Of a stretch of 50,702 bases of DNA, positions 38,455-43,052 are shown in pieces. Origin of the DNA: Candidatus Zipacnadum vermilionense (GTDB lineage Bacteria > Armatimonadota > Zipacnadia > Zipacnadales > Zipacnadaceae). The number at the start of each line of letters is the position of its first letter. The stretch's first letter is position 1. The notes beneath the pieces were generated by a model, which was not told where the DNA came from, made no database searches, and saw only the letters and a program-made list of their open reading frames with translations. The stretch is taken from assembly GCA_029821755.1 (NCBI GenBank), contig JALGSV010000025.1, positions 1 through 50,702 of the forward strand. The letters are read 5' to 3'. Made by a program: the position numbers and the translations under genes.

Positions 38455-38646
38455 CTAGGTTTCCTGCCAAGAGATCGCCGCGTAGGGGCAGGAGTCCATC
38501 GCCTGCTGGATAGCCTGCTCGTCATCACCCTCGGGATTCACGACCTCCGAAATCCCCTCATCGTTTACCTTAAAGGTATGCGGGGCGATGCTCTCGCAGA
38601 TGTAGGCTCCCTGGCACTTGTTGGGGTCCACATAGGGTATGCGCAT
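38455..38646 (-). CDS. Small ferredoxin with three cluster cysteines ([3Fe-4S]-like)
   Basis: A 63-residue ferredoxin. ATG 38646 (MRIPYVDPNKC) follows AGGAGCCGACT. The cluster motif is CQGAYICESIAP, so the second Cys of the usual C-x2-C-x2-C is Ala. The remote Cys is in DSCPYAAIS. This pattern is known from [3Fe-4S] ferredoxins, which often serve cytochrome P450s. It is a close paralogue of the ferredoxin at 38787, which keeps all four cysteines; the two lie in tandem on the minus strand, 140 bases apart. The redox partner is unknown. Confidence 0.85.
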   Translation of the reverse strand: MRIPYVDPNKCQGAYICESIAPHTFKVNDEGISEVVNPEGDDEQAIQQAMDSCPYAAISWQET

Positions 38647-38786
38647 AGTCGGCTCCTGGGGACGACGGGCACAACGGCGGCACAACTACAGGTAGAACAG
38701 CAATACAACGGCAGCAAAACGGCGGGGGCCGGTCAAGGAGGGCAAGGCCCGGGACTGGCCGGCCCCGATGGTTAAGCCGGGCAACG

Positions 38787-38978
38787 CTAGTCCTCTTTCA
38801 AGGAGATGGCCTCGACCGGGCAGGAGTCTATCGCCTCCTGGATGGTCTCCTCGGAGTCGCCAGCGGGGGTGATGACCTCCGCGACGCCGTCATCGTTCAT
38901 GACGAAAGTGTTCTCAGCGACCTGGGTGCACAACTCGCACCCCGTGCAGATATCCGGGTCAACATAGGGGATAGCCAT
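38787..38978 (-). CDS. Small ferredoxin with complete [4Fe-4S] motif
   Basis: A 63-residue ferredoxin starting at ATG 38978 after TGGAGGTAAGAACC. CTGCELCTQVAENTF contains C-x2-C-x2-C and DSCPVEAIS gives the fourth Cys, so it should bind one [4Fe-4S] cluster. The body aligns with the neighbouring three-Cys ferredoxin over its whole length (IPYVDP, NDDGVAEV versus NDEGISEV, and DSCP-x-x-AIS), so they arose by duplication. It is an acidic, soluble electron carrier. Confidence 0.9.
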   Translation of the reverse strand: MAIPYVDPDICTGCELCTQVAENTFVMNDDGVAEVITPAGDSEETIQEAIDSCPVEAISLKED

Positions 38979-39865: not shown

Positions 39866-39895
39866 TTGACACTTCTCCTACCCGCGGCCTACAAT
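39866..39895 (+). promoter_or_regulatory. Sigma-70-type promoter for the 39938/40275 pair
   Basis: TTGACA (39866-39871), an 18-base spacer and TACAAT (39890-39895). Transcription would begin near 39902, giving a short leader with an AGGAGG ribosome site before ATG 39938. Confidence 0.75.
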
Positions 39896-39937: not shown

Positions 39938-40282
39938 ATGTCGGGGATAATCGACAGGCTGCGTGCGGTGGTGCTAGGGACGCGGTGCCCGGATTCCAAC
40001 GGGACCGCTCCGGCGCTGGTGATTCGCATTCGCTGCGAGAACTGCGGCGAGGAGATCACTACCCGGGTCGAGAAGGCCCACGCCCTGCAAGAGCAGTACG
40101 AGATGGTGGAGGGCGAGCACGGCGAGGAGCCGGAAGTTACCGGCTACTTGCTGCGAAAGGAAATCCTGGGCTCGAAGTGCCAGAAGATCATCTCCCTCAC
40201 CATGCACCTGGATGCCTGCACCCGCCCAATCAAGCACGAAGTGGAGGGCGGGGAGTTGCTGGAGGTCCGCGATAGTGGCTGA
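39938..40282 (+). CDS. Cys-containing protein of unknown function
   Basis: A 114-residue cytosolic protein. The start ATG 39938 follows AGGAGGCCGTCTT. Cysteines are at TRCPD, RCENCGEEIT, SKCQK and DACTRP; CENCG suggests a zinc-binding knuckle. It also has TTRVEKAHALQEQYEMVEGEHG and EVTGYLLRKEILGSKC. I do not recognise the family. It has a good promoter, and its stop codon overlaps the GTG start of the membrane protease candidate, so the two are translationally coupled and probably work together. Confidence 0.75.
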   Translation: MSGIIDRLRAVVLGTRCPDSNGTAPALVIRIRCENCGEEITTRVEKAHALQEQYEMVEGEHGEEPEVTGYLLRKEILGSKCQKIISLTMHLDACTRPIKHEVEGGELLEVRDSG

Positions 40283-41249
40283 GGACGGCAGGCCCAACGG
40301 CAGGCCCGACGACAACGGAACGCCCCCGACCGCTTCCCCCCTGTGGCTTTCGCTGCTTTCCCTCGCTATCTACGTTCTCCTGATCGGCGTCCCTCAGATT
40401 GGCTTTGGCCTCTACACCGGGCTAGCGTCGGTCCTGACTACGCTGGCGTTCACCGCGCTGTCCGTGGCGCTGGTGGTGCAGGTGGCGCGGCTGGGGATGG
40501 AGTGGTGGGGAGAGCTGGCGGGGATGGTGGTGGCCGTGGGAGCGTGGCTAGGGATGGACTGGGTGGCGGGGCGAGGGGACTTGGCGCGGCTTTACTGGGG
40601 GGCGATGTCCAGCGTCGCCTTCATCTTGCTGTGCATGTTCGCCGGACGGCTGCTGTCGCGGCTGCTGCGGGATCGGAACATCCTGCTGCCGGTGGCGGTG
40701 GTGGCGATCCTGGCGGACATCTTCACCGTGGCGATCGGGCCGACAGCCAAGGCCCTGGAAAACGCCCCGGCCTTGGTCGCGAAGTTCTCGGTGGGCCTGC
40801 CGGCGGCGGGGTCGGCGGCGGGTCCGGCGGGGGCCGAGGGGCTGGCGATGCTGGCCTCGATGGGCATCGGCGACTTCGTCTTCCTGGCGCTGTTTTTCAC
40901 GGCCGCGGCGCGGTTCGGTTTCCCCCTGCGCCGAGGCGGAGGGATCATCGCCGGGCTGGTCTGTCTGGCCCTGGCTGCCTACTTCCTCCTGCCCCCGGTG
41001 ATCCTCGGCATTCCCCTGCTCCCCTTCATCGCCGGTGGTTTCCTGATCGCCTACGGGGGCCGGTTCCGCCTGAGCAAGCCGGAGCGGCAAGCGCTAGTAT
41101 GGGGAGGATTGTTCCTGACGGCGTTGCTGGTGGCGGCGGGGTGGGCGATGAGGGGCGGGGGGCCGCCGGAGGGGGGGCAGCCACCGCCGGGAGCGCCGGA
41201 ATCAGCGGGGCAAGCTCGTGCCCCGCAGCCTCAACCTCCCAGCCCCTAG
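40275..41249 (+). CDS. Polytopic membrane protein, presenilin/SPP-like aspartyl protease candidate
   Basis: A 324-residue protein with about nine membrane segments. The start is GTG 40275, with GGAGGT nine bases before it, overlapping the previous stop by eight bases. Two membrane aspartates stand in presenilin-like settings. D148 lies in VAVVAILADIFTVAIGPTAK, where presenilin has an YD motif followed by a cytosolic loop. D200 lies in ASMGIGDFVFLALFFTAA, a G-x-G-D motif followed by F-x-F as in presenilins. A later PLLPFIAGGFLIAYG (residues 247-261) stands where the PAL motif is expected. The order and spacing fit an intramembrane aspartyl protease (GxGD type). PLLP in place of PAL and A-D in place of Y-D are departures, so activity is uncertain. 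Confidence 0.62.
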   Translation: MAEDGRPNGRPDDNGTPPTASPLWLSLLSLAIYVLLIGVPQIGFGLYTGLASVLTTLAFTALSVALVVQVARLGMEWWGELAGMVVAVGAWLGMDWVAGRGDLARLYWGAMSSVAFILLCMFAGRLLSRLLRDRNILLPVAVVAILADIFTVAIGPTAKALENAPALVAKFSVGLPAAGSAAGPAGAEGLAMLASMGIGDFVFLALFFTAAARFGFPLRRGGGIIAGLVCLALAAYFLLPPVILGIPLLPFIAGGFLIAYGGRFRLSKPERQALVWGGLFLTALLVAAGWAMRGGGPPEGGQPPPGAPESAGQARAPQPQPPSP

Positions 41250-41298: not shown

Positions 41299-41345
41299 CA
41301 ACCGAGACACAAGCAAGACAAACCCAGCGGACACGGTGATTGCGT

Positions 41346-43052
41346 ATGGCGAAGAAATCCGAGCCGGAGCACAAACACCCCGCGGACCTGCCCGTGACTG
41401 AGACCGGGGAGGACTGGCTGGGCTTCGGCCAGTACGTCGAAGGTCTGACCTCCCTCATCGAGGAGACGCAGACACCCTTCATGCTGGGCGTCTACGGCGA
41501 CTGGGGCGTGGGCAAGACCAGTCTCATGCGCCTGTTGCAGCAGTCTCTCGAGAAGAAGAAGCACGCCACTGTCTGGGTGAACCCCTGGAAGTACAACCAA
41601 TCCGAAGAGGTCTGGAAGGCGCTGGTGCGGGCCGTGTACGAGGCCGTGCGTCTGCACCTGAGCTTGCTGGACTTCACTGCGGAGCACACCGTGGACACTC
41701 TGCGGAAGGGCGGAGAGAAGGCGCTGGACCTGGTGGGCAGGCTGGCCAAGGTGGGTGAGGTGGGCCGTGAGTTGCGGGAAATACTGACGCTGGACTCCGC
41801 CTACTGCAACACCTTCGAGCAGGCTTTCGAGGAGTAACTGAAGCAACTGAAGCAACTGCAGCAACTGCAGGACCAGGGCCAGGGCCAGCTGCTCGTGGTC
41901 TTCATTGATGACCTCGACCGCTGCGACGAGGAAGCCGTGCTGCAGGTACTGCAAGCGATCAAGCTCTACCTGGACCACGAGGGCTGCGTTTTCGTACTGG
42001 GCGTCAATCCTGAGGCGGTCAAGCACGCGGTAGAGGCCAAGTACCGGCAAGTCGGTCGAGAGGGGAACGTGTCGCCGGAGGTGGCGGGCGAGCACTACCT
42101 GGAAAAGATCGTCCAATTGCCCTTCTATATCCCACCCCCCGACGACGAGAAGATTGGGAAGTTTCTCGATAAGCTAGAGGTGGAGGGGAAAGCCCCCGCA
42201 GGAATCACAGACCCGACAGCTTGGCTCGGCTACGTGCGCCAGGTCGCCCAGGCCACGCAGAACAACCCGCGTCAGATCAAGCGCTATCTCAACACCATGC
42301 GCCTGATAGCGAGAATCGCGCCGCAGGAGGTCACCGTCGAGGGCGTTGAGACCAGCCTGGACCGGCTCAAGCTGGCCAAGGTGGTGCTGCTGCAGTTCGC
42401 CTTTGGCGATTTCTACCGCCTCATCTGCCGCTACCCCGTCCTCTTGTACCGAGGGCAGCGATACGCGCGCGACCGCCAGGCGGAGGGGGGAGAGCCCGTT
42501 GCCGCTGCGGAGGACCAGCGGCGGGAGAGCCTGCTGGAGGACCTCGCGCTCCGCACCGAACACCTCGACCGCTTCGCCGAGATTGACCGCAACCCACTCC
42601 TCGCCCGGCTACTGACCCAGGAGCCGCTCTGGGACAGCGAAGCCGAGGCCGGCTGCTATGTCACCTACTCCGGCGCTGGCCCCTCCGCCTCCCGCCCGCC
42701 CGACTCCGACCAGCTTCAAGATGACCTGTTGCACGGCTCGGTGACGACTATCCAGGCAGCAGCAAGCACGGTGCTCAGCCAGGGGGAGGAGGCGGTGCGC
42801 ACGCACGTGGAGGACCTTGTCCGGCGGCTGACCGATGATGACTCTACCATGCGCTACCGCGCGGCCGTGGCCCTCGGTTTCCTAGGCGAGGGGCGGGCGG
42901 TCGAGCCGTTGGTCAAGGCCTTGGGGGACGAGGACGCGGCTGTGCGCCGGAGGGCGGCCGACGCCCTCGCCAAGATCGGGACCGAAGAGGCCAAGCAGGC
43001 ATTGGCGAAGTACAATGAACAGGCTGGCGAAAGCGACGAGGACTCGGAGTGA
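41346..43052 (+). pseudogene. KAP-family P-loop NTPase with HEAT repeats, broken by one in-frame stop
   Basis: Reading from ATG 41346 gives 163 codons, then TAA at 41835-41837, then the same frame continues to 43052 (569 codons in all). Walker A is GVYGDWGVGKTS (K57), before the stop. Walker B is VVFIDDLDRCDE, after it; DDLDRC is diagnostic of KAP NTPases. The C-terminus has HEAT-like repeats (YRAAVALGFLGEGRAVEPLVKALGDEDAAVRRRAADALAKIG). The stop falls in a 9-base repeat tract (CAACTGAAG type), where the first CAA appears as TAA. KAP NTPases are membrane-associated or phage-exclusion ATPases (PifA). A restart at GTG 41895 would begin inside Walker B, so neither half should work alone. Confidence 0.82.

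Follow-up and report, generated by a model that had tools for sequence, protein, structure and literature searches.

A candidate presenilin/signal peptide peptidase-type intramembrane protease family in the bacterial phylum Armatimonadota

The candidate protease locus

The window, by which we mean the whole stretch of 50,702 nucleotides analysed, derives from Candidatus Zipacnadum vermilionense; the locus studied lies on contig 83 of a 4.39-Mb assembly. It comprises two overlapping genes on the forward strand. The upstream gene (39938..40282) encodes a soluble protein of 114 amino acids with three conserved cysteines (C33, C36 and C81), here called the Cys protein. It overlaps by 8 nt with a gene that has a GTG start (40275..41249) and encodes a 324-residue membrane protein, a candidate presenilin/signal peptide peptidase (SPP)-like intramembrane aspartyl protease. 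Both open reading frames, and their overlap, are as given in the original prediction, which also placed the two genes under a shared strong promoter. A promoter-like element, TTGACA-N18-TACAAT (39866..39895, forward strand), is indeed present upstream of both genes and matches the consensus in 11 of 12 positions, while shuffled sequences average 0.1 such sites; the promoter claim thus holds as far as a sequence match goes.

Presenilin and SPP are enzymes that cut proteins inside membranes. Their hallmarks, a first catalytic Asp, a GxGD motif and a PAL motif, had been proposed for the 324-residue protein, and they were found at the positions claimed and conserved in the family alignments: D148 in the sequence ADIFTV (codon 40716..40718), GIGD at residues 197-200 with D200 as the second catalytic Asp (codons 40863..40874), and the PAL-like PLLP at residues 247-250 (codons 41013..41024), all on the forward strand. 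Nine helices are predicted, and D148, GIGD and PLLP fall in successive transmembrane helices. In the AlphaFold2 model (pLDDT 84.4, pTM 0.80) the helices span residues 22-42, 48-71, 77-98, 102-128, 134-153, 198-213, 218-238, 249-263 and 268-294. D148 is located within helix 134-153, GIGD at the head of the next helix (198-213) and PLLP, with Leu where PAL has Ala, at the start of helix 249-263. Presenilin and SPP have five helices ahead of the first Asp, and their PAL helix is the last. The model, with four helices ahead of the first Asp and one beyond the PAL helix, thus predicts a variant arrangement.

Two other features of the window may be mentioned. The protease gene is followed by a gene (41340-43052) whose product is a P-loop NTPase of the KAP family, with HEAT repeats at the C-terminus. 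A single in-frame TAA, at about 41835-41837, interrupts this gene, both halves lying in the same frame; the gene may be a pseudogene, contain a sequencing error or have a true stop. On the reverse strand lie two adjacent genes for small single-cluster 4Fe-4S ferredoxins, one (38790-38978) with the motif C-T-G-C-E-L-C and the other (38458-38685) with C-Q-G-A-Y-I-C, in which Ala replaces the middle Cys.

Conservation and distribution of the family

A relative of the protease was found in 235 of the 291 Armatimonadota genomes searched, representing 135 of 156 genera. An alignment of 28 members, mostly from the same order as the source (alignment A1, mean column identity 42 %), has P139, D148, T151, V152, G155, G197, G199, D200, F203, P247, L249 and P250 among its invariant columns. 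Both catalytic Asp residues and the PAL proline are retained across the 18 distant relatives of a second alignment (A2, mean column identity 25 %), and likewise in each of the 31 rows of a broader alignment, to which 19 distant loci from other families and classes contribute. Profile-profile comparison links the order-level and the distant sets with a probability of 100 % (E 6e-59). Since these residues are invariant or retained throughout, the motif pattern is not a chance occurrence; it is the conserved core of a large family. The residue preceding D148 is Ala in the window protein, and Tyr occupies this position in 1 of the 31 rows.

The GxGD motif itself is subject to variation. Nine of the 19 distant loci (L058, L059, L060, L062, L063, L065, L066, L068 and L069) have G-P-A-D or G-M-A-D in its place, with both catalytic Asp residues kept. 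The change falls on the glycine preceding the catalytic Asp, a position that we take to be equivalent to G384 of presenilin-1 (PS1). PS1 G384A is a familial Alzheimer's disease mutation.

Further searches were made beyond this set of genomes. A scan of genome contigs with the single protein returned no relatives. When it was based on an alignment, as one short pattern, the named records matched were those of Armatimonadetes/Armatimonadota and 'Candidatus Zipacnadia' only. No family relatives were found in the plasmids and viral contigs searched. One congeneric genome (G289) has the protease in two partial matches on contigs C14 and C50 (query residues 28-205 and 164-317), so that either the assembly or the gene itself may be broken here.

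In most of 29 loci, other classes included, the protease gene has a next downstream neighbour on its own strand, with a start no more than about 250 nt away. Judged by sequence this neighbour encodes leucyl-tRNA synthetase (L005, L012, L019, L035, L043, L053, L054, L056, L061, L064 and others), followed in some loci by ComEA- and ComEC-like genes. Within the source's own family the neighbours mostly differ from this arrangement, and several relatives there have folK-, ftsH- and tilS-like genes on the opposite strand. The gene neighbourhood supports vertical inheritance of the protease and gives no function.

Relationship to presenilin and SPP

The window protein has no match to Pfam or NCBIfam models. 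Searched against 177,635 PDB sequences, the A1 profile matched presenilin-2 (E 0.011) and presenilin-1 (E 0.013) only, with the family GxGDFIF aligned on GLGDFIF and PLLP on PALP; the A2 profile matched presenilin-1 alone (E 0.088). These E-values are individually weak, yet nothing but presenilins appeared at E up to 10. One relative from the same order (L012) scores above the cut-off of the Pfam SPP model PF04258 (Peptidase_A22B; 24.9 versus 23.3 bits, E 1.9e-5), with a match over residues 143-246 that covers its D149 and D201. The Pfam Presenilin model (PF01080) gave a weak match, below the cut-off, in seven members. A six-frame search of 101 Armatimonadota genomes with the archaeal model PF06550 yielded none, while it was positive in Haloferax and Methanosarcina; the family is therefore invisible to this model. 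The corresponding search with PF04258 also found none in Armatimonadota, a result that is uninformative alone since the control genomes likewise lacked a match. The HMM comparison with Peptidase_A22 and archaeal presenilin homologue (PSH) models that had been suggested for the protein thus gave a divided answer, positive for one relative with PF04258 and negative for the window protein itself and for PF06550.

The predicted fold is the strongest of the arguments. VIA-align, run on 996 Foldseek-ranked chains against the AlphaFold2 model, gave the highest score for PS1 (6idf_B, Z 14.2 at an rmsd of 3.0 over 190 residues), with SPPL2a (9k93, Z 11.7 at an rmsd of 3.9 over 191 residues) and archaeal PSH (4hyg, Z 10.0 at an rmsd of 4.7 over 153 residues) also matching. 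The top 20 PDB entries for the predicted model are exclusively presenilin-1, presenilin-2, SPPL2a and PSH (Z 14.2 to 9.2), and the best unrelated entry reached 7.1. Foldseek by itself was not significant, with presenilin at E 0.29 and ranked behind an unrelated transporter. Moreover, the fold evidence and the motif are not fully separate arguments, because AlphaFold may have learned the presenilin fold.

The structural alignment with PS1 starts at model residue 48 (PS1 residue 73) and ends at model residue 265, so that the first and last model helices are located outside the shared core. Judging from these ranges, the 324-residue protein would lack equivalents of two of the helices that presenilin has between TM1 and TM6. 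It had been asked whether the two Asp residues might lie on different faces or outside the membrane. In the model both are located in membrane helices, near the same end of the bilayer and in the stretch that aligns with presenilin, which answers the question in part. Taken together, the conserved motifs, the exclusive presenilin matches in the PDB, the score of L012 and above all the predicted fold support the presenilin/SPP assignment, and the 324-residue protein is very probably a distant member of this GxGD superfamily of intramembrane aspartyl proteases (MEROPS A22), most likely an active one.

The Cys protein

The 114-residue protein had been described as a Cys-knuckle protein and as a cytosolic partner coupled to the protease. 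Its CENCG motif is present (residues 33-37), and C33, C36, G37 and C81 are invariant in the alignment of its homologues. However, a C-x2-C with a single distant Cys does not make up a full four-Cys zinc site. Weak matches to zinc-ribbon Pfam models were below the cut-off. The predicted structure (pLDDT 78.6) combines a beta fold with a short helix at the N-terminus and has no helix long enough to span a membrane. Its comparison with the PDB gave no clear match: a phage tail spike scored best (Z 6.6) and all others at most 4.6, among them ribosomal zinc proteins, MCM N-domains and C1orf123 (Z 3.4).

Homologues of the Cys protein were found in 28 of the 291 genomes, all in the source's order and across several families. 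In all 28 copies the gene is located directly upstream of the protease gene, and several pairs overlap by 4 to 8 nt. The gene pair is thus real, but it has no equivalent elsewhere: the protease occurs without the Cys protein in orders other than the source's, and within the latter in one genus. Because the protease persists in its absence, the Cys protein is not essential to the family, and its restriction to one order means that it is not a general cofactor. This restricted distribution would also fit a protein that is functionally unrelated to the protease and merely co-transcribed with it, an explanation to which we give serious weight without preferring it, since the unbroken adjacency across several families, with overlapping reading frames in several cases, speaks for a connection. 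Most likely the Cys protein acts as a soluble accessory in the cytoplasm and, in this one order, is co-translated with the protease.

Membrane orientation and proposed mechanism

SPP is inverted in the membrane relative to presenilin, and this orientation goes together with cleavage of N-in substrates (PMC7768045). For the Armatimonadota family the distribution of positive charges was considered. Loops on the same side as the N-terminus have on average 1.25, 3.43, 2.61 and 2.46 Lys plus Arg residues, and three loops on the opposite side 0.39, 0.39 and 0.11. The long loop between D148 and D200 has a mean of 2.71, spread over 46 residues, and because this loop itself carries some charge the call is not a clean one. 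By the positive-inside rule these loop charges would place the N-terminus in the cytoplasm and the D148-D200 loop in the periplasm. The protein is therefore probably oriented as SPP and not as presenilin.

On this basis a mechanism can be proposed. With the N-terminus in the cytoplasm, the D148 helix would cross from cytoplasm to periplasm and the D200 helix would return, so that the two Asp residues would come together within the periplasmic third of the membrane. There the pair would activate water, with the P-x-LP motif lining the substrate cleft. By analogy with SPP the substrates would be N-in (type II) transmembrane segments, for instance leftover signal peptides and signal-anchor segments, and clearance of signal peptides may, rather doubtfully, be the main role. 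It was considered that the protease might replace SppA, and for this genome the idea was rejected: it encodes a clear S49 peptidase (G000:C43, E 1.2e-57), and with this S49 signal peptide peptidase present the protease is no simple stand-in for SppA.

Three alternatives to an SPP-like protease were weighed. The protein might combine the presenilin fold with the presenilin orientation, in which case the D148-D200 loop would be cytoplasmic and N-out (type I) segments would be cut. The higher fold score of presenilin compared to SPPL2a and the weak Presenilin matches of the seven members agree with this, whereas the loop charges favour a cytoplasmic position for the N-terminus and for loops bc, de, fg and hi, and the sole match above a Pfam cut-off is to SPP; we consider the presenilin orientation unlikely. 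It is less likely still that the protein has kept the fold and no longer cuts, serving as a scaffold or transporter. No activity is known, and the GxAD loci carry their change at the presenilin G384 position, but both Asp residues are invariant in all aligned relatives, those with GxAD included, and a scaffold would not need them. Finally, it is very improbable that the protein is an unrelated one of permease type that arrived at its D, GxGD and PxLP pattern by convergence, since the lack of a family match for the window protein and a weak fold match to the NosDFY permease (Z 6.0), dismissed as background, stand against the clear fall in Z after the presenilin-type entries, the exclusive presenilin matches of the PDB profile search and the relative that passes the PF04258 cut-off. 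The SPP-like intramembrane protease remains the preferred reading.

Significance and comparison with known enzymes

Presenilin-type proteases outside the eukaryotes have been shown in archaea (PMC2947513), and archaeal members were also described elsewhere (PMC9263693; PMC4343526). A literature search, with most subscription papers outside its reach, revealed neither a description of bacterial members of this type nor a link between presenilin and Armatimonadetes or Chthonomonas. The archaeal roots of SPP and presenilin were reportedly treated by Raut et al. in 2021, and bacterial members may have been noticed in earlier work. It is tentatively suggested that the family represents an ancestral, phylum-wide Armatimonadota branch of presenilin/SPP-type proteases, which present profiles miss and which has a helix order of its own (4 + 2 catalytic + 2 + 1), a GxAD subclass that is still active and, within a single order, a soluble Cys protein as dedicated cofactor. 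If most genomes of a bacterial phylum have kept a protease family of this kind, this would be informative on how old these enzymes are. Structural and inhibitor studies would gain small and possibly single-subunit enzymes, and the GxAD branch would directly test the need for the glycine preceding the catalytic Asp.

With the SPP family (PF04258; SPP, SPPL2a) the window protein shares a helix with an Asp followed by a helix with GxGD and, after one more helix, a P-x-L motif, as well as the probable orientation, the SPPL2a-like fold and, through one relative, a score above the Pfam cut-off. It differs in being bacterial, in having A-D instead of Y-D and PLLP instead of PAL, and in its four helices instead of five ahead of the first Asp, with an extra one past the PAL helix. 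Presenilin (PF01080), the catalytic subunit of gamma-secretase, is the best fold match, and its GLGDFIF and PALP are nearly the same as the family consensus GLGDFIF and PxLP. However, the window protein is predicted to be inverted, lacks the long TM6-TM7 insert, has a different helix complement and has no known gamma-secretase partners. The archaeal presenilin homologue PSH/MCMJR1 (PF06550, Pfam SPP) is likewise prokaryotic and compact with the same type of fold, while PF06550 is blind to the Armatimonadota family and the helix arrangement and YD motif differ. The type IV prepilin peptidases and FlaK (A24) are also prokaryotic GxGD diaspartyl membrane enzymes, but they have their catalytic Asp residues in soluble regions several helices apart (PMC2947513). 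In contrast, the window protein has no A24 match, and its AlphaFold2 model departs from the A24 layout by placing both Asp residues in adjacent membrane helices.
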